From: Paratrimastix pyriformis
Lineage: Eukaryota > Preaxostyla > Paratrimastigidae
NCBI GenBank assembly: GCA_027972325.1
Contig: JAPMOS010000065.1
Location: forward strand, 56,001 to 120,000
Length of the DNA stretch: 64,000 nt
Direction of reading: 5' to 3'
Shown here: piece after piece, positions 16,098 through 57,000 of the stretch
How positions within the stretch are numbered: the first letter of the stretch is position 1
Layout: every line of letters starts with the position of its first letter
Notes under the pieces: generated by a model
What the model was told of the DNA's origin: nothing
What the model saw: only the letters and a program-made list of their open reading frames with translations
The model's database searches: none
Made by a program: the position numbers and the translations under genes

Positions 16098-29084
<12,987 letters not shown>

Positions 29085-30557: not shown

Positions 30558-32651
30558 TCACTCACAGTCCTCCGACGAGGGCGCCAGCAGGAGCCTTATG
30601 TTCCTTCGTGAGCGGATCAGGTCGCGGAGCTGCATGAGCAGCCTGCCCAGCCGGTTGGAATGGCCCCAGTAGGACTGGCCAGCCTCGAAGACGATCTGCC
30701 CATGGGAAGAGTGGCAAGACACACGCCGCACGTGACGTTGATGTGTGAGGTGGCGGCGTTGGACTTCGAAAACCCTCAAAGACAGACTGCCCTCCTCCTC
30801 CTCCCTCCTCCTCCCACAGCGCAGGTTGCAGACGCGGCGCGGGTGGGTCCCGGCCAGCAGGACGCACAGCTCGGGGTGCTGGAGGAACTTGAGCACCAGC
30901 CCCTGCCGCATGGCCCATTGCCGGTTGAACTGCGAGGGGGCACGCGGGCGGGTAGTGCGGCGGGCCCAAGGGAGAAGCCGGGGTCAGTGCGGGGAGCCGC
31001 CCGCCGGGCCGCCGGGCCGCCAGACCTGTTTGGATCGCGCCCCGCAGGCCGCCTCACGGGCCTCGAGGGCCGACGGGGCCGCGTGGACCTGCGCCAGCCG
31101 GACGGGATCCTCGGCCGCCATTTGGGCGAAGTAGAAGTGATCAAGCGAAGGGTGCGCGTACCCGACCTGGTCCCTGATCGTGCACAGGGCTGGGGGGGAT
31201 GGACAGGGAGAGAGCGATGAGGGAAAGGGACGGAAGAAATGACGGAGGGATAGGGCCCGCATTTTCAGGTCAATGAACGCGAGAGACGGAAGGACGTGAA
31301 GGAGCAGAAGGGACGCGAACCCGAATTGAGGAGCATCTGGTACGGGTGCTCTACATTGCTCGGCCCCATCCTCAGGTCCGGGACGCCGCCAATCGGGGAG
31401 CTCGGGTGAAACACAGGGGCCTCAACACGTAAGCGAGTATAAACAGGTGGAGGTGGCGGCAGTCCCCAAGGCGAGGCGGGAGGGGATCGGGAGCGCTGGC
31501 GAGGAGGGGATTGTGACGGAGGGCTGGGGAGCCGCTGCTGCAGGCGCGGGGGCAATCCATCGAGTCCCAGTCGCCCACCAACCGCGGCCATGAGCTCCGC
31601 CAGCTGGGCCTGTGGGTGCGTCAGGGGGGAATGGTGATGTGCAAAGCAGGAGGAAGAGATTAGGGGAGGGTGGGAGAGTGGGTGGAAGAGAAGGGGCGGG
31701 CAGGAAGGCAGGAGGACTTTGGTCTCCTGCAGCTCGGCCTGTGTGGCCCGCAGGCTCTCGGCCATGGCGCGCATGTGGGCCGCGGAGGGATCTGCGAGGT
31801 GCTGGTCCAGGGCATGCCGGGGGATCTGGAGATTTGGGGTGAGTGGGCGAGAGTGGTGTGGGGGCGTGTGCCGCTGACCCGATGCGTACATGTCGGAACG
31901 GGGCAGGCCACTGGGAAATTGGGGCACCCGGCCTCGTGCTGCGGCATCTCACTGCGGGGAACGGAGGCGCCACAGCCGTGCGGACATGCAATGGGGATGC
32001 GAGGGCATGTCCCGAAGTGGGTCTATGGCAGGGAGAGGGAGGTGTAAAATGGTGCACTCGTACGCAGACGTCAAGTTCGCCCTGGGGGAATTCCGACCGG
32101 CAATGCTGGCAGGGGACGCGTTTGCGGGGACACCCGTTCGCGTGTTGAGCCAGATCACGTGCAAGGCAACGAAAGTTGCAACCAGGGTGTGAGCAGCTCA
32201 CTGTTCGGCAAGGACACGCCCGGGCCTCATGCTCCTCGGCATCCTCCAACCTGATCGTGATGATTAGGCTTTGTCAGATTGGTTAACAGACTACAGACTT
32301 GCCCTGCCATTCGCATCCAGCTTGATTGTTTGCACAGAAGACGATTTGCCGGCCAATCATTCCATGCAGCGAGATGTCCAGCGTGGGAGCATTCGCAGTC
32401 ACCGGAGAACGGCACGCCCTGCGGAGGTGAGAAGGACATTAAAGATTTCTTTTTGCAACCGCAGACGGGCATTCCCGTTTTTGCTTGAACCACTCCGTGC
32501 AGCAAGCTTGACACATTTTATGATTGGTCGGACAACCCACCGAAACGGGCCTCCGCATCACACAGCCACAAGATAAACAGTTGAACTCCGGGAAAAGACC
32601 CTCTGGGTGGACAAAGCGAGCTTCAGAAAAACCCTCGGCGACAATGGACAT
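30558..32651 (-). CDS. RING + TRAF-type zinc finger + NADAR protein, copy A
   Basis: Predicted E3 ubiquitin ligase fused to an ADP-ribose/NAD-linked domain. The RING comes first: CLSCGCVMRRPVSVGCPTNH, then KMCQACC and, across an intron, RECPACRSPV (C-x2-C, C-x3-H, C-x2-C, C-x2-C). TRAF-type fingers follow (VFCANNQAGCEWQGK; CSHPGCNFRCLARDLAQHAN; CPRKRVPCQHC; HEAGCPNFPVACPVPTCTHR). Then come a coiled-coil helix (MAESLRATQAELQETK) and a Pro/Arg linker ending YQMLLNSG. The C-terminal part matches NADAR (DUF1768/YbiA): SLDHFYFAQMAAEDPVRLAQ, HAAPSALEAREAA, RQWAMRQGLVLKFLQHPELC, SYWGHSNRLGRLLMQLRDLI. Introns use GTCTG-type donors. It has one more Cys-rich finger exon than copies B and C. The start was chosen at the Met (32651) aligned with the B and C starts. 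Confidence 0.85.
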
Positions 32652-33050
32652 CGTGTGTGGTGGTGTTGACCTGGAAATACCGGCTTCGCCGGACCCGGTT
32701 GTCGCCCAAAAATTCAACGGCTTCAACTCCTTGTCGCTTCAAAGGCTTGTTTTGCATGATTCCACGCCACGACCTTCTCGCCGCACTGACGGGAAGCGGA
32801 TATCTGGGGCTGTTCCGCAAACAAATGGCCGCCAGGGTTATAACCGCCAGCCCTTGGCCTGCCCACCCAGCCTGAGCAGCGCGCCCTTTCTTTTGGTTTA
32901 GCGTGTTCGTTCTTTCCCCCACCCTCCCCTCTCCATCGACCCTGGGTAACATTGGGCACGGGCCCGAGAAACAGCCGGCCGGCCGCCAGAAAAAGCAGAC
33001 ACGTCGTGCACCTCGGTTCTTCCGACTGGGCGTCGTCGCAAACGGAGCCC
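32652..33050. other. spacer between RING/NADAR copies A and B
   Basis: About 400 bp between the start of copy A and the stop of copy B. It presumably holds the copy A promoter. No repeat or additional exon was recognised. Confidence 0.4.
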
Positions 33051-34951
33051 TTAATTTCCACCGCCGTTCAACGGGCTCGCCGGCCTCAGCAGTCCGACCA
33101 GGTCCTGTGGCGAGCGGATCAAGTCGCGCATCTCCATCATTACCGTGCCCAGTCGGTTGGATCGGCCCCAGTAGGATCCGGGCGCCTCGAAGATGATCTG
33201 AAATGGGGGCAAACCCGTTGCATTGAGGCGATTGGGTGCGTTGGACCTCGAATCACGAGGAATCAACTCACGAGCACACAGCCCAGGGTTGCAGACCTGG
33301 CGTGGATGAGTCGAGGCCAACAGGTCGCGCAGCTCGGGGTGTTGGCTGTACTTGAGCAGCAGCCCCCGCCGCATGGCCCGTTGCCGGGTGGACTGTGCGT
33401 GAGTAGGGACGCGAGCAAAGGTGTCGTCAGAGAAGAAAGATAGATGCGATCGGTGCTGCGGTGGGGCAGGTCTGCAGGCAGCCAGACCTTGGTGGTAAAT
33501 CGTAACCCACGGGCTACCTCACGGGCGGCGCGCCCCGTGGGAGCGGCATGAATCCGCGCCCGCCATCCGTCCCCATCGTCGGCCGCCATTTGGGCGAAGT
33601 AGAAGTGATCCAGCGACCGGTGCACAAACCCCGCCTCGTCCCGAATTGAGCAGAGGGCTGGGAAGTGGGGACGGCGGATTGGGAACCATGGAGTCAGGGG
33701 ATCCGAGAAGTGGTGGGAGAGAAAGGAAGGAGGATCCGCATTGGACGAACCCGAATTGAGGAGCATCTGATACCGGTCTTTGGCATAGTCCGGCCACAAC
33801 CTCAGGTCGAGCAGCGAGCGCGGGTCCTCCGCATCGCCCGGCTCCACCCTCGGGTCCGGAGGCGGGCCCAGGTCGCGCGGAGGAACGAAAACGGGGGCTG
33901 GATCGCGCAGAGGAAGGTCGCACGGAGGAACAAAAATGGGGACCGGGTCGCGCGGACGAAACGGGGGGGCTTCGGCACGGAAGCGGGCACGCCCGGCGGC
34001 CGGCAGAGGTGGGCGCGGGACAGGGGCGGGCATAAAGGGAGGTGCATCGACGCGCAGGCGGCCGGCGAGGGGCGGCGGTATTCCAGGGGACGGGGTGGCA
34101 GGCTGAGCCCCCGGGGCGAACGGGGAGTGGGCACGACGGGGGGGTGCTTGCGGCGATGGGGTGGGGAGTAGCGGGAGGCGACCGCGTGGCTGGCTATCCA
34201 GCAGCTCGTTAAGCAATGCCGAGAGTCGTGTGGGTTGAGCCTGGGGAGCGGAAGACGCGGTGAGGCACATTTGCTGCAGCTCAGTCTGTGTGGCCGCCAA
34301 GCGCTCGGCCATGACGCGCATGCAGGCAGCGGAGGGATCTGCGAGGTGCTGGTCCGCAATCTTGGAAATTTGGCGTGAGCGGGACGAGAGGTGCTTGGGG
34401 GTTGTGTGTCACAGACCCGATGAGGGCAGGTTGGAACGGAACAAACAGCTGGGATGTTGGGACACCCGGCTTGGTGCTGGGGTATCGCACCCTGTCGATA
34501 GAGACACGCCCGGATTTCATGCTCCTCGGCATCCTCCAACCTGTGTGAGGACAAGGGATTTATTTGGGCAAAAGGGAATGGCACACAACGCAGACTTGCC
34601 CTGCCATTCGCACCCAGCCTGTTGGTTTGCACAAAAGACGGTGAGCCGGCCGATCATTCCGTGCAGCGAGATGTCCAGCGTGGGTGCGTTGGCATTCACC
34701 GGCGAACGGCACTCCCTGTGTCCCGTGAATCCAATCATTCAACCCCGCCCACCCACAGACGGGCATTCCCGTTTTCGCTTGAACCACTCTTCGCAGCAAG
34801 CTTGGCACATTTTATGATTGGTCGGACAGCCCACCGAGACGGGCCTCCGCATCACACAGCCACAGGACAAACAAAAGAACTCCGGAAAGAGACCCTCTGG
34901 GTGGACAAAGCGCTCTTCCGAAAAACCTTCGATGACATTGGGGCCTGACAT
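33051..34951 (-). CDS. RING + TRAF-type zinc finger + NADAR protein, copy B
   Basis: Tandem paralogue of copies A and C. It starts MSGPNVIEGFSEERFVHPEG and has the same RING (CLSCGCVMRRPVSVGCPTNH ... RECPECRSPV) and TRAF finger (VFCANQQAGCEWQGK), then only one further finger segment (QHQAGCPNIPAVCSVPTCPH). A helix (MAERLAATQTELQQ) leads into a long Pro/Arg/Ala-rich, probably disordered linker with repeated FVPPRDL/PRDPVPI units, then RYQMLLNSG. The NADAR part reads IRDEAGFVHRSLDHFYFAQM, MRRGLLLKYSQHPELRDLLA, SYWGRSNRLGTVMMEMRDLI and ends NGGGN at 33051. The first NADAR exon has diverged (AADDGDGWRARIHAAPTG instead of AAEDPVRLAR-type). The first exons and introns are almost identical to copy C (see findings). 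Confidence 0.85.
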
Positions 34952-35394
34952 CGAATCGTCGCGTGTCCCCTGGGCAGAGTCACTAAAGTTGGTCGGAACG
35001 TTTTTGGGCGGAGGGTTTATGGACCCTCTGGGTGTGGGAACGGCTTCCCACATGTTCCAGAATCATCGGAGGCGGGTTGAAGCAGGGTTGAAGCTGCTTC
35101 AACCTATGCCGCTTCAATGAATTCTTTGTGTTCCATCATAAGACCTCCAGACAACGATTGCGCGCAAGGTACCGTTTCAAATTTTCTGGATTGATGGAAC
35201 GCCTTTTTCGAAAGAGGCATTCTGCAGCGATACCAGTGCATCGAGCATCGAGGGGGGAAGGCCGACTCACAGCCGTGAGAGGGCTTCGAGAACGTGGAGT
35301 GGGCCCGGTTCTCTTTCTCCTTGTTGCCACTGTTGTGTTGCAACTCTATTTTCTGACTGCCGCCAGCATCGTCACCAACAGGACCCTTTTCTCC
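34952..35394. other. spacer between RING/NADAR copies B and C
   Basis: About 440 bp. The first 25-30 bp are shared with the copy C promoter (ending CACTAAA-TTGGTCG), after which the two upstream regions diverge completely. No exon was recognised. Confidence 0.4.
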
Positions 35395-37474
35395 TTATTC
35401 TCCGTTGTACCGGCTCGGCGGCAACAACTCGAGCAGGTCCTGCCGTGAGCGGATCAGGTCGCGCACTTTCATCAGCAACTTGCCCAGCCGGTTGGCCCGA
35501 CTCCAGTAGGACCCAGGCGCCACAAAGACGATCTGGACAGGGCGGGGCAGTCGTACGAGGCATGCATTGATGATCGGTGGGCGCTGGACCTCGAATTGCG
35601 AGGACCCATGCTAATCACAGACGGGAAGATCCCCAATTCGACACGAACACACAGCCCGGTACAGACGCGGCGTGGGTGGGTTGAGGCCAGCAGGTCGCAC
35701 AGCTCGGGGTGTTGGCTGTACTTGAGCAGCAGCCCCTGCCACATGAGTCGTTGCCGGGCAGCCTGCGGGGGGGGGGGGGGGGGGGGGGGGGGGGGAACGT
35801 GGGCATGGAGGCGGACGAGGGGGTTGGAGAGGTGCAGCAGCGGGGCCAGGCAGGCAGGCAGCCAGACTGGTGTCAATCGCACCCCACGGGTCACCTCACG
35901 GGCCTCGAGCGCCGACGGGGCGGCAAGGATTCGCGCCAGCCGGACGGGATCCTCGGCCGCCATTTGGGCGAAGTAGAAGTGATCCAGCGACCGGTGCACA
36001 TACCCCGTCTCGTCCCGGACCGGACAGAGAGCTGGAAAGCGCAACGGGACGAAGAGAGTTTGGGATCATTCGGGAGCCGAGAAGGGGTGGGAGAGGAGGA
36101 AGGAGTGTCCATGCATTGGCAGGGAGACGGACCCGAATTGAGGAGCATCTGGTACCGATCTTTCGAGTCCGGCCACAACCTCAAGTCGAGCAGCGAGCGC
36201 GGCTCCACCTCCGCATCGTCGTCCGGCTCCATCCCCGGGTCCGGAGGCGGAGGAGCGAAAAAAGGGACCGGGTCGCCGGGAGGAGCGAACATGGGGACCG
36301 GGTCGCGCGGAGGAGCGAAAAATGGGAACGGAGGAGGTCCGAAAACGGGGGCTGGGTCGCGTAGAGGAGCGAAATCGGGGATGGGGTCGCGCGGAGGAAG
36401 GAAAGTGGGGACGGGGTCGCGCGGACGAAACGGGGGGGCTTCGGCACGGAAGCGGGCACGCCCGGCGGCCGGCAGAGGTGGGCGCGGGACGGGGGCGGGC
36501 GTAAAGGGAGGTGCATCGGCGCGCAGGCGGCCGGCGAGGGGCGGCGGCATCCCAGGGGGCGGGGTGGCAGGTTGAGCCCCCGGGGCGGGCGGGGAGTCAG
36601 CGCGCCGGCGTGGTGGGAGTCGCTGCAGTAGGTCAGGCGGGAGGCGGTCGCGTGGCTGGCTATCCAGCAGCTCGTTAAATAACGCCGAGAGGCGTGCGAG
36701 TTGAGCCTGGGAGGGTCGGAAATCGCGATGATTGCTCATTTTCCCAGAGGAGGGCAGAAGGAACGGGAGGGCAGGAGGGCAGGAGGACCTTGGTCTGCTG
36801 CAGCTCGACCTGCGTGACCGACAAGCACTCGGCCATGGTGCGCATGCGGGCAGCAGAGGGCTCTGCGAGGTGCTGGTCCAAGGAGTTCTGGGCAATCGGG
36901 AAATTTGGCGTGAGCGGGACGAGAGGGGTCGTGTGTCACGGACCTGACGAGGGGAGCTCGGAATGGGGCAAGCAACTGGGATGTTGGGACACCCGACTTG
37001 GTGCTGGGGTATCGCACCCTGTCGATAGAGACACGCCCGGACTTCATGCTCCTCGGCATCCTCCAATCTGTGTGAGGACAAGGAATTTGGTCAAAAGGGA
37101 ATGACACACAACGCAGACTTGCCCTGCCATTCGCACCCAGCCTGTTGGTTTGCACAAAAGACGGTGAGCCGGCCGATCATTCCGTGCAGCGAGATGTCCA
37201 GCGTGGGTGCGTTGGCATTCACCGGCGAACGGCACTCCCTGTGTCCCGTGAATCCAATCATTCAACCCCGCCCACCCACAGACGGGCATTCCCGTTTTCG
37301 CTTGAACCACTCTTCGCAGCAAGCTTGGCACATTTTATGATTGGTCGGACAGCCCACCGAGACGGGCCTCCGCATCACACAGCCACAGGACAAACAAAAG
37401 AACTCCGGAAAGAGACCCTCTGGGTGGACAAAGCGCTCTTCCGAAAAACCTTCGATGACATTGGGGCCTGACAT
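35395..37474 (-). CDS. RING + TRAF-type zinc finger + NADAR protein, copy C
   Basis: Third tandem copy. Its N-terminus, RING and TRAF finger are as in copy B. The Pro-rich linker is longer, with repeated FAPPRDPVP/FLPPRDPIP-type units. The NADAR segments are VRDETGYVHRSLDHFYFAQM, HFYFAQMAAEDPVRLARI, AAPSALEAREVTRG, MWQGLLLKYSQHPELCDLLA and SYWSRANRLGKLLMKVRDLI, ending SRYNGE at TAA 35395-35397. The SLDH-FYFAQM and NRLGKLLMKVRDL blocks correspond to the VEH-YYQAQK and N-LGKLLM-VR blocks of YbiA/NADAR; the usual Glu of the first block is Asp in all three copies. An intron contains a 30-base G run on the plus strand (35768-35797), that is, poly-C on the sense strand. The start lies 65 bp from the divergent gene at 37539. 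Confidence 0.85.
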
Positions 37475-48777: not shown

Positions 48778-51700
48778 TTAGAGGGTCTTCAGGGCGGCGT
48801 CCAGCTCGTCCACCAGGCCGCCGAACTCGCTGAGGGCATCCGTGATGACGGTCGGGTTGCGCAGGTCGACCCCGGCATCGGCCAAGATGTCGGCGGGGTC
48901 CTTGGCGCAGCCGGCACTGAGGAAGCCAAGGTAGCGGGGCAGCGCGTCGGGCGCGCCGCTCATGAGGCGTTTGTGGAAGGCCAGCGAGGCACAGAACGAG
49001 GTAGCGTACTTCCAGACGTAGAAGTTCTGGGGGGAATTGGGAATGAAGAAAACGGTGAACATCAGCCCCCAGAGCCCCGGGTCCGCCATCACGATCTCAC
49101 ACCCAACCACCGCCGCCATCACCATCTCACCATCACCGATCACCACCACGATCACCACCACAACTTTCAACCATCACAATCACCGATCACCATCATCACC
49201 ATCAGCATCACCACCACGCCCACCGATCACCGCCGCCACTCCAACAACCACCATCACGCCTCGGCACGTTTCACGGGGGACCCGAAACCCACCGAGCCAC
49301 AACAGAAGGGGCGCAGGACGGACGTAGTAGAAGTGCGGGATGCGAGTCCACTCGTACCGGATCTGGCGGTCCGCCCGGACGGCCGTGTGTGGGCCCTCGG
49401 CGGTCACCAGGGGGATGCCGGTCGCCGCCTCGTCCGTGACCACGGCATCGTCCGTGGGCAGCACATCGCCGTAGTACAGCGAGTTCAGTCGCAGGTAGAT
49501 GGCTGGTCGCGGGACAAGGGGACAGGGAGCCGGGGGGAGAAAAAGCAGAGTGAGAGAGCGGAAGATGGATGATGGTTGGATGATGGTTGGATGATGGTTG
49601 GATGATGGATGGTTGATGGTTGATGATGATGATGGCCGGATGATGATGATGATCACACACAACCAACCCAACGCCTTCCCGGGCGGACCGGCGAGGGACT
49701 CCTCAGTGAGGGGCTCGCCAGCCTCGAGGCGCGCATGGACGAGCTTCTCAAACTCGCCAAACATGGTCTGTCGGTAGACGGTCCCCTTGAAGTCGTCACA
49801 CTTGCTGTTGACCAGGAAGGCCAGCAGGCGGGTGTCATGCTCACGGCGGGCCTTGGCCACCAGGAAATCGTGAAGCAGAAGCTCATTCAGGGTCGAGGCA
49901 ACCTGCGCGGGGGGGAGGAGGGTTGGGATGGAGATTGCGGATTTTTGCCACAGTGCGACCAATCTTGGGTGGATTGGATCGATGGATGGAGTGGAGGATG
50001 TAGGGCTGGATGGATGGATGGGTTGATGGGTGGGTGGATGGGCGCAGCAGGCGTGGAGAAGAGCGTGAGGCGGGCGGAGCAGGACGGGAGCAGCTGATCG
50101 TCCCGCCACCGTCTGCCCGTGACACACACGGATGCCTGGGTTGGGTGGGAAGGGCGGGGCGCGGACCTCGGCGACGAAGATGCGGTAGTCGGAGGTGCAG
50201 TGGGGCTGGGCGCGGTGGCTCATGAAGCTGTGGATCGAGTGGCCTGTGGGGAAAGGCGGGCGGGACACGGGGAGGTGAGGATGGCGGGCAGCGAGATAAC
50301 GAGGGGGGCGTTGGCTGCTGATTTTGCGCTGGTGGTGGTGGTGGTTTATGGCTGACTGTGCCAGTTGGTCGGGGGTGATCAAGCTGGGTGCGGGGGTGGT
50401 GGGTGGGTGGGTGGGTGGTGGGTGGGTGGTGGGAGCTGGGTGAGCGGAAGCGTGCCTGGGCGGGGCAGGGATGGCGGACCGAGCTCGTGGGCCAGGGTGA
50501 AGACCGACTGTCCCACAGGAGCGCAGGGGAGGATGAGACGAAGGAAAAAGAGCCATGAGTGACCGGATGAGAGAAGGCGGGTCACACCCCGATTCGTGTC
50601 GTCAGCTCCCCTCTCATCCAGAGAACGCGGGTCACCCGCCGGAGAACGAAACGCGATTTGTACGTCACTCGGACAAGAGTGCGGAGGACCCTGATTTCCA
50701 TCTGAACGAATCGCGCACCTTCCCTTCGCCCCTTCAACCCGCCGTTCAGGCTCCGTGCCACCCGAGCCCATCCCTCTGCATTTCACGGGCCCACAGGGGG
50801 CGTGCATGCGTGTGTGCGGGCGGGCAGACCTCGATGTTGCCCACGAAGTTCATCAGGATGAAGGGGTGCGAGTCGTAGCAGCCCCCGCTGTATGCGCCGC
50901 TCTTCTTGCCCTTGTTCTCGAGCGCATCCACCCAGCGGTGCTGCCCGGGGTGAGTGTGCGCGGAGTCGGATGGGGGTGAGGATGATCACCGGAGGGGACG
51001 TTTGTGTGGAGCGGGGTGGGAATTCCACTCCCATATTCCAGCACCACGCGCAGATACATTCCAAGATACATTCGAAGAGACATTCCAAAGGAGGTACATT
51101 CCAAGTACATTCCAAGGTACATTCCAAGTACATTCTCATGATACATTCCAAGATACATTCCAGGACGCATTCGATCACACTTCGCAAGACGGCCGCCCGC
51201 AAAGAGGCCGACGAGTCCACCCACCCAATACCCGACACCCTGCGCCCACAAGAGGCACACATCCGGGGCGCCCGGCAAGACCACCCACCCCCCGACACTA
51301 CCACCTGCAGACCTCGCGGAGGCCTTTGACGCAGATGTCGTGGTACTCCGGGCCCAGAGGCCGCACCGCCTCGAGGACCCACTCGACGGCCTCCTCCCAG
51401 CTGACCTTCCGGTCGCAGCCCTCCACCAGGGGCACATACATATCGCACATGTCTGGGCGGGGAATGGAGGAGGATGGAGGGGGATGTCAGCAGGGTACAC
51501 TCCACCAGGGGCACATACATACATGTCGCACGTGTCTTGGCGGGGAAGGGAGGATGGAGAGGGTCATGTCAGCCGTCACCAGGGGCACGGACGTGTCAAA
51601 CATTGTCTGGGGGGATGGCGCACAAGACAAGGTGCCCAGTGAAGGGATGATTGGGTGATGATTGGATGATGATTACAAGGTGCCCAGTGAGGGATGGTGG

Positions 51701-53186
51701 GCGGGGGCGGTGGGGGGCGGACCAAGGGTGGGCAGCTTGAGGGCCCGCTGGCGCACGCCCACGTACTTGTAGAAATGCGGCAGGGCAGCATGCACGGCCT
51801 GCACGGCAGCACAGATAATGACACAGGCACAGACAGACACCAAGGCGAAACGCAAGGAAAGGCGGGCGGGGGAAGAGGTTAACCAATCCGAGCCGACACA
51901 AGATGTGCCCCGCATCACCACCCCAACCATCATCGAAGTTCCCCCAAAGGTCGGCATCGGGCGGGGGAGCGTGGGATTTCTTCGGGAGAGGGAGCGAGAG
52001 GGAGCGAGAGGGAGGGAGGGAGGGGGTGTCACGGACCTCGATCAGCGAATCGTAGATGGACACGGGCAGGTTGTCCTGGGTGTGCGTGTGTGTGTGGGGG
52101 GTGGGGGGGTGGGGGTGGGGGTGGGTGGAGGAGGAGGAGGGGGTGAGCATCGCCGTCACCCCCCCTCCCTCCTGCCATCCCTCATGCCTCATGTACGGAC
52201 CGCATGCAGGGCCTGGTGCAGGGCGCTGGGGTGGTGCCGGACCCGGGCACTCAGGCAGTCGACCTGCGGATGTCACCCCCAAGGGGAAGAGAGAGACGGT
52301 GGGATCGCCGCGACACATGCCATCAGGAACAACGAAGGGGCCCGCCGGCACGAACCTTGATCTGCCCGTCGAGGCATGAGGCGAAGGTGTTCTTGAAGTG
52401 CTCGTGGGTGTTGTACATGGCCTTCCAGGCACGCTGACGAACCTCGCGGTTCTAGCGACATCAACAAGGACAATCGGACGAACCAGTGAGTGATGTGTGA
52501 TGCGCTTCACACAGACCGGGTTTTGCAGGAAAAGGATATAGTTCCCATCAGAGAGCTGCACCTCCTCGCCCTTTTCGTTTTCGATCTTGGGGTACTCGAG
52601 ATCGGCGTTGGAGAGCAGCTCGAAGGTCTTCTCGAAGCCCGAGAAGGCATCACTGGCGGCCGAAAGGAGGGCCTCTTCGGGGGCAGAGAGGGTATGTGGG
52701 CGCTCGCGCAGAATCAATTCCATGACACGAGCCCAGGGAGCAAGCGCCTCATGACGTTGATACTGGGCCAGGATTGCGGGGTCCATGGCAAGGAGCTCAG
52801 GATTCATCCAGCTGGTCTCTGCGGAAATCTTGCTCATCTTCGCGGACATCTTATCGGACATCCCAAGATAGTGCTGGTTCCGGCGATCCTCATCAGCACG
52901 GTGAGAGGCATAACTATGGGGGTAGACAAGGACATCGACGATGGCGAGACGGATTGCAAACAGACGTATGAAGGGTGGTCAATTCACGGGAAAGTTTGTC
53001 GTCCAACTCGAGACACTTGGCGACTCGTTCGGCGCTCTCGTGGAGGTGGCCTTTCAGCTGGTTCAATTCGGCTACCATCGGGTCAAGAAGCCTGAAGCGA
53101 GCCTCAAACTTTTCGTCGTTCAGGAAAGACTCCAAGTCCCAGCGCATGGCGAGCGGAATGAGAGCTCTCTCGGGAATTTCGGACAT
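48778..53186 (-). CDS. oligoendopeptidase F-type metallopeptidase (family M3)
   Basis: Cytosolic zinc oligopeptidase resembling bacterial PepF. ATG 53184-53186 begins MSEIPERALIPLAMRWDLES, the family N-terminus. Next come LLDPMVAELNQLKGHLHESA, SNADLEYPKIENEKGEEVQL, NREVRQRAWKAMYNTHEHF, YDSLIEV, DMYVPLVEGCDRKVSW and NKGKKSGAYSGGCYDSHPF. The HExxH zinc site is split by an intron: VFTLAHELG joins to GHSIHSFMSHRAQPH. The third-ligand region is IFVAEVASTLNELLLHDFLV, followed by FRQTMFGEF-like VYRQTMFGEFEKLVHARLEA, LYYGDVLPTDDAVVTDE, RIPHFYY and VWKYATSFCASLAFHKRL, ending DAALKTL at TAA 48778-48780. Many short introns; one has ACATTCCAAG-type repeats (51055-51170) and another has duplicated acceptor/exon starts (51480-51610). 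This family is typical of prokaryotes and some protists, so lateral origin is plausible. Confidence 0.92.
51050..51175. repeat. 10-12 bp ATTCCAAG/ACATTC minisatellite
   Basis: Tandem variable units such as ACATTCCAAGGT, ACATTCCAAGT and ACATTCGAAGAG in an oligopeptidase F intron. Confidence 0.9.
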
Positions 53187-54085: not shown

Positions 54086-57000
54086 ATGGCCCTGGGAAAG
54101 GCGAGGAGGTGGTATGGGCGGGAGGCTTCGCCGTGTCGTCGGATTCACCGATCGGTGGGGTTCATCACTGCACACACGTCGACATCTGCCCCCCGTCCCG
54201 CCCTCCGCCCCTCCGCCCCGCAGGCGTTCATGGCCAGCTTCGGGTGGAGCAACGATCATCATCATCATCAACATGATCATCAGCAACATGATCATCATCA
54301 TCAACATGATTATCATCAACATGATTATCATCAACATGATTATCGATTATCATCAGTATGATCATCATCAGCATGATCATCATCATTCAATCATCATCAT
54401 CATCATCATCAACATCATCATCATCATCATCATCATCATCACCCCCCTCCGCCCCGCAGGCGTTCACGGCCAGCTTCGGGTGGAGCAACGAGGTCTACCA
54501 GCAGGCCGACGTGCAGGAACTATACAAGATCTACATGGAGGCTCTCATCAAGACCATGCGCCGCGGGGCGCCCGCCGACCCGGAGGCCGTCTGCGGCCGG
54601 TACGCCGAGGCCGCTGCCGTGCCGGGTGGCAAGCCCTGTCTGTGCGTCGCCCCGTCCACCGCCCCCATCTTGCTGTCGCCCCATCCGCCGCCCCCCTCTT
54701 GCGCTGTCGTCACCCGGCTTTTTGCGAGTCATCATTTTGTGATTCTTGTTCGCCACCGGCCCCCAAGTTTCGCTCAAGCTGTGCGTCAGTTGGCGACCCT
54801 TCCTGTCCGATTGATCAGCCCCTTTGCTCCGCATACACACACACCCGGCCTTCCGTGACGAGAGATGCGGAGTCGATTGGTGCCTGACATAGAGGATGAG
54901 TGTTTTTATAATTGCCGGTTTGTCTGTGTCGATGGCTGGTCTCCTCTGTCTGGACCTGACCACCCGTGTGTTGCGATCGGCCTGTGGGCATCCGGGGCAC
55001 AGGCACGACCCTCGACCCTGCCGACGCAGTCCATGGGCTTTTCACGGGCACCACGCGCGACTACATCCGCTGCCTGGTCTGCACCCCCCCCCCCCCCCCC
55101 CCCCCACGCACACGCACACACCCTGTTCACACCAACTTGTCCCTTTCAACATCGTCCTTCTTCCTTCTGCTTCTGCACAACACACACACGCACACACACA
55201 TGGGGATCCCTTTGCTCACTGGTGAAGTGACATCGCTGTCTCCGTCACACCCGCACACTCATATCCCAGCCAATCATCGTCACTATCCAATCATCATCAT
55301 CCGATCATCATCATCATCCGATCATCATCCGATCATCATCCAATCATCCAATCATCCAATCATCCAATCATCCAATCATCATCGGCATCATCGGCATCAT
55401 CGGCATCATCATCATCATCAGCATCAGCATCCAAACATCACCATCCAGTCCATCACCATCCACCCACCCACTCAGCGGTGCGTCTTCTCGAGTGTGCGCA
55501 CATCCATGTTGCCACACTCATATCCCCTGCATGACACACACACCCGCTTCTTTACACGACACACCCGCTCAGCGGTGCGGCTACTCAAGTGTGCGCACGT
55601 CGATGTATTCGGATCTCTCGCTGACCGTTGCCGGGAAGGGCTCCCTCGAGGCCGCCCTGGCCGGGTTCATTGAGCCCGAGCTGCTCAGCGGGGAGAACGC
55701 CTACTCGTGCGAGCGCTGCGGCACCAAGGTCCGGGGCGCTCGATACCAGCGCATGGCGACACGGCATTTGGCACGGTTGAGGCCCTCAAAGGCACTCACT
55801 CATTCACCCTTTCCAATCGGCCGCTCATTCATCTTCGCACACCCAGGTTGAGGCCCTCAAAGGCACCTGCATCGCGAGCGCCCCGGACGTGTTGGCGGTG
55901 CACCTGGAGCGGTCCAGCTTCGACCTGATCCGGGTCTGTCACCCCCGCAGCCCCCATGAGGCTGCCCCTGCGATGAGTCAGACCTCCCAGTGTCCTTGCT
56001 TGGTTTCTCATCCCCTCGTTTCCCTGGTGTTGCCGCCTCCGTCCCCGCCTCCGCCTCCGCCCCACGCGGCGCCCTCTCGCGTGCAGATGAGCAAAGTCAA
56101 GCTGAACCACCAAGTGACCTTCCCCACCCGGCTGGATATGTCCGCCTCGGTCATGGGTCCGTCGGATCGTCCTCCCCTCTCTCCCTCCCTCCATCCCCCC
56201 CTTGGGTCATCCATCCATCCGATGACGCAGCCAGCACTCGGTATCGGGGCGAAAGACGAATCGAACCGTCCGGGAGCTGTTCCCTTCAGGACAGCTGGAA
56301 CTTACGCAAGGTAAAGCGGATGATTCGCGGAATTAGCGGATGGAATATGCGCTTCTCAAAGTTTCAAGGGCAATTGGCGCGCGGATGGGCCTCCGGTGCA
56401 AAAACCGTTTTCCCCCCGCCGCCGAGTTCCCCATCCCCGCCCCCGATTTCTGCCCACTCGCGACCTTCCGCTTTTCGCCCCCCTGCAACCTTCCCACCCT
56501 GTCTTTCGCACCCCGCCCAGAAACACGAGGGACGGCTTTTTGTCTCTTTGTCCGTCTTCCGGAATCAAAAAGACATCAAACGACGATGAATACAGCTTTT
56601 ACGTTCAAGCTGTGCGTCATTTGAGACCCTTCCTGTCCGATTGATCAGTCCCTTTGCTCCACACCCACCCCGCCCGACAGACATCCCGACGGCCGTGCAG
56701 CGGTACGAGCAGGCCCACCCTGCGGTCGCCCCCTCGGCCGCCGGGGCCGCCTCCGCATCCCCGAAGGTGCCTTCATCGGGTGACGAGACGCAGGTGCCCG
56801 CGCCTGCTGCAGAGCAGGCCCATGCGTTTGCGGCCGCGAGCGCGGGGGCCACCGCCAGGTCCCTTGAGGTGATGGTGTGGGGTATGCGCGTGTCATACAG
56901 ATGGGAAGAAGGAAAAAACAAAAAGCAGAGAGGCAGAAGAGATGTGTGTGTTGCGTGGCACTCCAGTGAGAATAAAGTAAACCGGGAAAATCACAAAAAA

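Follow-up and report, generated by a model that had tools for sequence, protein, structure and literature searches.

A tandem gene family of Paratrimastix pyriformis predicted to join a RING and TRAF-finger head to a degenerate C-terminal NADAR domain

The NADAR domain was reportedly defined by de Souza and Aravind in 2012. Members of this family are described as erasers of guanine ADP-ribosylation, as antitoxins and as N-glycosidases of the riboflavin pathway (PMC11125620). Among RING ubiquitin ligases (E3), RNF146 is reported to read ADP-ribose through a WWE domain, and RNF114 and RNF166 to bind an ADP-ribose-ubiquitin hybrid (PMC12583581). We analysed a stretch of 64,000 nucleotides from Paratrimastix pyriformis, described as a free-living flagellate (PMC10703272); it covers positions 56,001 to 120,000 of contig JAPMOS010000065.1 and is called the window below. 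Three tandem genes of the window, named C, B and A, are each predicted to encode a RING and TRAF-type finger head joined to a C-terminal NADAR domain, and in this domain most of the residues required by the NADAR enzymes are lost. An earlier reading made from the letters of the window (the sequence-only reading) had pointed out this architecture and knew of no described protein with it. In agreement, no RING-NADAR fusion was described in the titles and abstract openings of the literature searched; eukaryotic sequence collections lay outside this search, and earlier annotation is possible.

As RING ligases with a module of ADP-ribose biology, RNF146 (RING and WWE) and RNF114/RNF166 (RING, three zinc fingers and UIM, as given in PMC12583581) resemble the window proteins by analogy only; none of their other domains is related to NADAR, and recognition of the ADP-ribose mark is established for theirs alone. 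SNA-3 is described as essential, with one of its NADAR domains missing key YbiA catalytic residues (PMC9303266), and in this respect it is like the eukaryotic NADAR proteins of the window. In contrast to them, SNA-3 is a trans-splicing factor of nematodes, and no RING is mentioned in that account. TRAF4, TRAF5, TRAF6 and other proteins with a RING and TRAF fingers share the order of N-terminal RING, TRAF-type fingers (recognised by Pfam in gene A) and helix, and TRAF4, TRAF5 and TRAF6 were found as PDB matches. The window proteins are unlike them in having a Pro-rich linker and NADAR instead of MATH (TRAF-C), for which no Pfam match at E<=1 was obtained in any of the three genes, and in the short finger array of two of the three. 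The NADAR/YbiA hydrolases (E. coli YbiA, 2b3w; the DarT1-associated NADAR; the Phytophthora nicotianae protein, 8bau) share with the window tails PF08719 homology, the NRLG motif, Trp133 and Arg93; the tails differ from them in the attached RING and in the pocket, as described below.

Gene models and domain order

The genes occupy positions 37474 to 30558 of the minus strand in the order C, B, A (Table 1). The three adjacent genes pointed out by the sequence-only reading could be spliced so that each is open throughout, with no internal stop, and the products measure 501, 485 and 474 amino acids, respectively. Splice sites were placed by hand, guided by the reading frame and the three-way alignment. 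All 21 introns begin with GT and end with AG, measure 45-138 bases and match in position across the three genes. The order of parts is the same in each protein: C3HC4 RING, TRAF-type finger or fingers, helix, Pro-rich linker and NADAR. The linker exon is 574 nucleotides long in gene C and 610 nucleotides in gene B, and both are open from the helix region into the first NADAR strand. Seven insertions or deletions separate the linkers of B and C (15, 24, 45, 6, 24, 3 and 3 nucleotides), each a multiple of 3; because of these and the E-values of the domain matches, the observed architecture is beyond chance. These splice models and alignments support the earlier claim of three tandem fusions with diverging linkers, and each gene would presumably be expressed as one mRNA from RING through NADAR.

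The C3HC4 RING that had been proposed for each gene was borne out by the ligand pattern, since the eight zinc ligands were present in this order in all three, but not by the Pfam score. The last ligand pair is created by splicing in each gene. Because the Pfam score was under the cut-off (see below), support for the assignment comes from the ligand pattern and from the PDB matches of the gene A head, in which phmmer found the TRAF4 fingers (9.4e-9), RNF8 (9.7e-6), the TRAF6 fingers (1.3e-5) and TRAF5 (1.9e-4). TRAF fingers had likewise been read in every copy. This was confirmed for gene A, with a zf-TRAF score of 56.8 bits over four stretches, but no zf-TRAF match was found at E<=1 in genes B and C. 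The finger array is 112 residues long in gene A against 41 and 42 residues in B and C, and the missing match is explained by the loss of about 70 of the 112 residues.

The C-terminal part is a NADAR domain, as had been read from the sequence. The Pfam cut-off for NADAR (PF08719, 35.1 bits) was passed by genes C and B, gene A falling short at 30.7 bits (E 4.4e-7). A profile of four tails, from A, B, C and a fourth copy on contig C43 of the same genome, detected E. coli YbiA (2b3w) at E 1.1e-12. The domain is spread over four exons rather than the three first noted, as the first strand, YQMLLNS, is encoded at the end of the long linker exon. For gene A the NADAR region was read contiguously, with introns kept as insertions, and modelled with AlphaFold (mean predicted local distance difference test, pLDDT, 69.4; predicted template-modelling score, pTM, 0.58); the exon parts were confident and the intron parts poor. 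The best PDB match of this model was the Phytophthora NADAR-ADP-ribose structure 8bau, with a Foldseek probability of 0.99 but an E-value of 0.048, template-modelling (TM) scores of 0.38/0.41 and nothing at E<=0.001. This predicted fold lends weak support to the NADAR identity of the tail. Of the structural comparison suggested earlier, a weak fold match was thus obtained, and the pocket was judged by alignment.

Pocket residues of the NADAR tails

Side-chain contacts to ADP-ribose are given in PMC11543638, in the Phytophthora numbering used here, as Glu43, Lys50, Arg79, Tyr84, Asp86, Trp89, Arg93, Glu125, Asp130 and Trp133. According to the same source, K95 of the E. coli C7 NADAR, the equivalent of Lys50, is needed for efficient hydrolysis and can be substituted by Arg in vitro. 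Efficient hydrolysis is lost when D171, in the place of Glu125, is changed to Ala or Asn. At E88, the Glu of the VEH block, E88A had a minor effect and E88Q was inactive in vitro, and substitutions of this residue gave no rescue of cells. The catalytic Glu125 position is occupied by Asp or His in other NADAR subfamilies.

We aligned the four fusion tails (A, B, C and C43) with five other NADAR domains of the same genome and 77 bacterial domains, the latter from 80 loci of which three were dropped for a stop within the match. Glu43, Lys50, Trp89, Glu125 and Asp130 were each present in 77/77 bacterial domains, with an upward bias in the counts of Glu43 and Lys50, and Trp133 in 75/77. Lys50, found also in all five other domains of the genome, is replaced by Met in 4/4 fusion tails. 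Glu125 is replaced by Phe, and Trp89 and Asp130 are lost, again in all four, and the tails lack the GGDG loop. The VEH-block Glu43 is Asp in 4/4 tails and also in domain C485b (see below), a conservative change. This Asp had been noted before in all three window genes and was found in C43 as well; it is not the sole change, as four more pocket residues are altered. Trp133 and Arg93 are kept in 4/4 tails and Arg79 in 3/4, gene A being without it, and the NRLG motif is retained.

The earlier suggestion that the tail removes ADP-ribose is not supported by these data, and a role as catalytic ADP-ribose eraser was rejected on the losses of Lys50, Glu125, Trp89 and Asp130. Since most of the residues required by the enzyme are lost, the tail probably binds rather than cuts. 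The companion suggestion that it senses ADP-ribose could still apply, but is weakened, as the lost residues also contact the ligand. The canonical NADAR domains C463, C485a and C485Y of the same genome keep Glu43, Lys50, Trp89, Glu125, Asp130 and Trp133, and therefore the erasers of this genome need not be the RING-NADAR family.

Copies, constraint and relatives in the same genome

Genes B and C are nearly identical over a segment that begins in the upstream DNA, includes RING and finger and reaches the helix (Table 1), beyond which the identity is 71%. Within the first 104 codons, only one synonymous change was detected. The near-identity of the 5' parts is probably due to gene conversion or a recent partial duplication. 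Besides A, B and C, no further copy was found in the window by tblastn with the three proteins at E<=1e-3. In the genome (56,060,509 bases in 495 contigs), contig C43 was found to carry a fourth set, in which RING/TRAF and NADAR share one strand and the order seen in the window genes and a Pro-rich stretch follows the head; the best 90 of 140 candidates were scored in this search, and more copies are possible. The first-NADAR-exon motif CPIRDEMGY.HKSL.H is also repeated in part, three to four times, just upstream of the intact exon on C43 (L037:2614-3094).

The ratios of nonsynonymous to synonymous change (dN/dS) are pairwise Nei-Gojobori point estimates with no significance test. For the RING, the ratio was 0.16 (A vs B) and 0.15 (A vs C). 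For NADAR, the six comparisons including C43 gave 0.30, 0.32, 0.37, 0.43, 0.51 and 0.53, and for the linker 0.62, 0.44 and 0.35 were obtained. The remaining finger stretch gave 0.20 (A vs B) and 0.31 (A vs C), and 1.6 for B vs C over just 41 codons. The NADAR tail thus looks constrained, yet more loosely than the RING head, in a pattern of purifying selection. The selection that had been suggested from the local triplication would accordingly be of the purifying and not of the diversifying type. Of the 136 gap-free columns in the alignment of the four tails, 59 do not vary; in the VEH-block helix the same is true of 12 out of 14 (P 8e-4 by column). The DNA of this helix is also little changed (1-6 differences per 42 bases), so that selection on the helix is not separable from conversion.

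In the tree described below the tail shares a branch with the second domain of tandem-NADAR proteins on contigs C485 and C486, which consist of a first NADAR domain, a Pro-rich linker and a second (b) domain. In each, a single open reading frame (ORF) runs from the last part of the first domain into the second, at L038:5537-7018 (minus strand) and L040:4150-5004 (minus strand), respectively. In the b domains, C485b and C486b, Glu125 is Phe and Asp130 is lost as in the window tails, but Lys50 is kept, another NADAR stands in front, and no RING or TRAF match was found in the 9.9-kb loci of C485 and C486, nor in that of C463. A tree of 29 rows (nine domains of the genome and 20 of the 77 bacterial ones), for which the tool gave a long-branch warning, grouped the fusion tails together (100/99) and united this clade with C485b and C486b (98/98); the canonical domains fell elsewhere. 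The fusion tail may have been taken from a protein of the tandem-NADAR type. On C485, a PARP-like ORF (L038:7675-9048, minus strand; 33.3 bits against a cut-off of 26.7) lies directly upstream of the tandem-NADAR gene and on the same strand. Further PARP matches were found on C223, C469 and C4 and at a second place on C485, the last being under the cut-off. Another canonical NADAR is located downstream of the tandem gene on C485 (L038:4369-5289).

A short b-type NADAR was also recognised at the C-terminus of a gene on contig C212 (L145:3255-4865, plus strand; six exons, spliced by hand; 447 amino acids). The tail, which is outside the tree, was found by tblastn with C486b (E 1e-4 genome-wide) and with C485b (1.6e-10 in the single locus), and was not recognised as NADAR by Pfam. 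The head of this protein is an MLKL_N-like bundle with a score below the cut-off (25.7 bits, E 9.2e-6, cut-off 27), and among its five phmmer matches in PDB at E<=10 there was no MLKL. It is followed by an EF hand, DxDGDGxIDLxEF (16.5 bits, cut-off 25.9), and a Pro/Ser linker.

Relatives of the head are numerous, with at least 53 zf-TRAF matches on 26 contigs. Many of these are on C441, C31 and C112, and eight weak matches (C49, C176, C213 and C475), all scoring 26.0 bits, appear to be a single repeat in several copies. Near the RING/TRAF relatives, no NADAR was detected at E<=0.01 in ten downstream ORFs at eight of nine loci, other ORFs being unscanned, and in tblastn of gene A against the nine loci the NADAR part was unmatched. 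Since the ten ORFs were without NADAR, the tail seems to be confined to one small branch within a large RING/TRAF family.

The G+C content is 61.4% for the window and 60.8% over 114 kb of other loci from the same genome. Elsewhere in the window, an oligoendopeptidase F-like gene was observed at 49183-52978 on the minus strand (Peptidase_M3_N 58.9 bits, Peptidase_M3 35.6 bits). A long triplet repeat at about 27920-28335 reads, depending on frame, as poly-His, Met, Asp, Ile or Ser, and similar repeats occur in L037 (C43) and L145 (C212).

Table 1. Positions in the window of the three genes and their parts
Feature	Position	Strand	Description	Basis
Gene C	35395..37474	-	501 amino acids, 8 exons	hand-made splice model
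Gene C exons	37474-37284, 37238-37119, 37067-36944, 36887-36789, 36706-36133, 36031-35868, 35762-35667, 35532-35395	-		hand-made splice model
RING of gene C	37232..37396	-	residues 27-66, split by one intron; CPECRSPV once spliced	ligand pattern
Linker exon of gene C	36133..36706	-	helix, Pro-rich linker and first NADAR strand	single open exon
Degenerate NADAR of gene C	35395..36154	-	end of linker exon and three exons	Pfam NADAR, 38.4 bits
Gene B	33051..34951	-	485 amino acids, 7 exons	hand-made splice model
Gene B exons	34951-34761, 34715-34596, 34540-34417, 34360-33751, 33657-33488, 33392-33297, 33197-33051	-		hand-made splice model
RING of gene B	34709..34873	-	CPECRSPV once spliced	ligand pattern
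Degenerate NADAR of gene B	33051..33772	-		Pfam NADAR, 36.2 bits; alignment
Gene A	30558..32651	-	474 amino acids, 9 exons	hand-made splice model
Gene A exons	32651-32467, 32418-32299, 32250-32070, 32022-31879, 31825-31718, 31609-31321, 31189-31026, 30929-30834, 30695-30558	-		hand-made splice model
RING of gene A	32412..32579	-	CPACRSPV once spliced	ligand pattern and PDB matches
TRAF-type zinc-finger array of gene A	31879..32336	-	four stretches	Pfam zf-TRAF, 56.8 bits; PDB TRAF4, 9.4e-9
Degenerate NADAR of gene A	30558..31342	-		Pfam NADAR, 30.7 bits, under cut-off; alignment; weak 8bau fold match
B/C near-identical segment	36796..37519 vs 34272-34995	-	92% identical, 737 columns, 26 gaps	blastn

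Proposed recognition by the tail and alternative explanations

With a probability of roughly 0.55, we propose that the genes encode a family of RING/TRAF-finger ubiquitin ligases carrying a non-catalytic C-terminal NADAR as recognition module. From its sequence the RING is a candidate for ubiquitin-ligase activity; with eight zinc ligands, it would recruit a ubiquitin-conjugating enzyme (E2) and transfer ubiquitin. In TRAF proteins, fingers and helix serve oligomerisation or E2 contact, and by analogy those of the window proteins may aid either function. The NADAR tail, being without catalytic residues, would dock the ligase to its target through recognition of a ligand or partner. An altered nucleotide ligand, an ADP-ribosylated partner or another NADAR protein are candidate targets, and a possible setting would be ADP-ribose-linked stress or immune signalling.

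Several points weigh against this interpretation. The best Pfam RING model scored 16.3-16.8 bits against a cut-off of 27 in all three genes. Part of the bacterial set came from a search pattern that includes EHYFQAMK, hence the bias noted for Glu43 and Lys50; residue numbers were assigned from motifs and alignment rather than from superposition, with Tyr84 and Asp86 outside the mapping. The match to 8bau is poor by its numbers, and the alignment behind the gene A model was itself built of NADARs. The tree is small, and the dN/dS values are point estimates. On C43, the DNA between the RING/TRAF and NADAR halves is partly N, and continuity is not judgeable there. In A, B and C43 a Glu stands one residue past the lost Glu125 (Val in gene C), and a shifted strand could let this Glu substitute, with residual or altered catalysis. 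Finally, the lost residues include ligand contacts, so that even ADP-ribose binding by the tail is doubtful.

A special case of the recognition module, put forward tentatively, is a reader-writer ligase similar to RNF146 or RNF114: the tail would bind an ADP-ribosyl mark made by a PARP-like protein of the genome, and the RING would then ubiquitylate the target. Ligases that read ADP-ribose are reported to exist (PMC12583581), PARP matches are present on four contigs (C223, C469, C4 and C485), one ORF being next to a tandem-NADAR gene, and the phosphate contacts Arg93 and Trp133 are kept in 4/4 tails and Arg79 in 3/4. Four further ligand contacts, Lys50, Trp89, Asp130 and Glu125, are however lost in every tail. 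A wider view, which we regard as somewhat more doubtful, sees in the degenerate b-type NADAR a C-terminal input module that several proteins of a protist stress or immune network have in common, with a pseudo-NADAR as sensor. In such a network, b-type NADAR would be joined to a RING/TRAF ligase (window and C43), to an MLKL-like bundle with EF hand (C212) and, on C485, to a canonical NADAR that lies next to a PARP-like writer. The input would be a signal derived from NAD or ADP-ribose, or a NADAR partner shared by these proteins, and it would control ubiquitylation, attack on membranes and erasure.

It is unlikely that the genes are decaying duplicates, chimeras with a drifting tail that has no role. 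Decay would agree with the higher dN/dS of NADAR (0.30-0.53) than of RING (0.15-0.16), with the finger array mostly lost in two copies and its ratio of 1.6 over 41 codons, and with the missing Arg79 of gene A. Against this, the three hand-made models contain no stop or frameshift, the tail is kept in four copies, and the invariant columns (59/136) include 12/14 of the VEH helix (P 8e-4), the DNA of which is little changed too. Because the NADAR ratios are 0.30-0.53 in all six comparisons, the tail is not plainly drifting. Less likely still is an active or re-specified hydrolase fused to the E3, in which the tail would cleave an N-glycosidic bond of ADP-ribose or the riboflavin pathway and the RING would mark or clear the substrate. 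The Asp in place of the VEH Glu is still acidic, E88A of C7 had its minor effect at this very residue in vitro (PMC11543638), Trp133 and Arg93 are retained in 4/4 tails, and the Glu beside Glu125 is found in 3/4. These features have to be set against the Met at Lys50, the Phe at Glu125, the lost Trp89, Asp130 and GGDG loop, and the reported need of the Lys for efficient hydrolysis, the inactivity of E88Q in vitro and the failure of E88 substitutions to rescue cells (PMC11543638). That RING/TRAF and NADAR are two neighbouring genes, co-duplicated as a pair and never one protein, is improbable and was rejected: the partly N sequence of C43 would allow it, but the open linker exons of genes C and B and the seven in-frame differences between them speak against it.

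Mobile and viral sources were also considered. Some retrotransposons are reported to contain NADAR domains, namely Gypsy elements from a brown alga and Tx1 LINEs from an oyster (PMC12477816). A retrotransposon origin was rejected for the window genes, which have 7-9 exons with short introns; no reverse transcriptase (E<=0.001) was found in the ten ORFs scanned out of more than ten in the window outside the genes. A viral source was rejected as no relative turned up when IMG/VR was scanned once with the alignment of the four tails; tblastn of the gene C tail against phages gave two weak ybiA records (E 8e-3).

If the b-type NADAR is indeed such a shared input module, an ADP-ribose-linked signalling system would be present in a flagellate. 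NAD and ADP-ribose biology would gain a new non-catalytic module in a NADAR branch that kept its fold, lost its catalytic residues and forms the C-terminus of an E3 and, on a weaker match, of an MLKL-like protein in the same genome. If the tail binds an ADP-ribose mark, RNF146 and the ligases of the RNF114 group would be joined by a further class of ADP-ribose-tied RING ligases, from a distant eukaryote.

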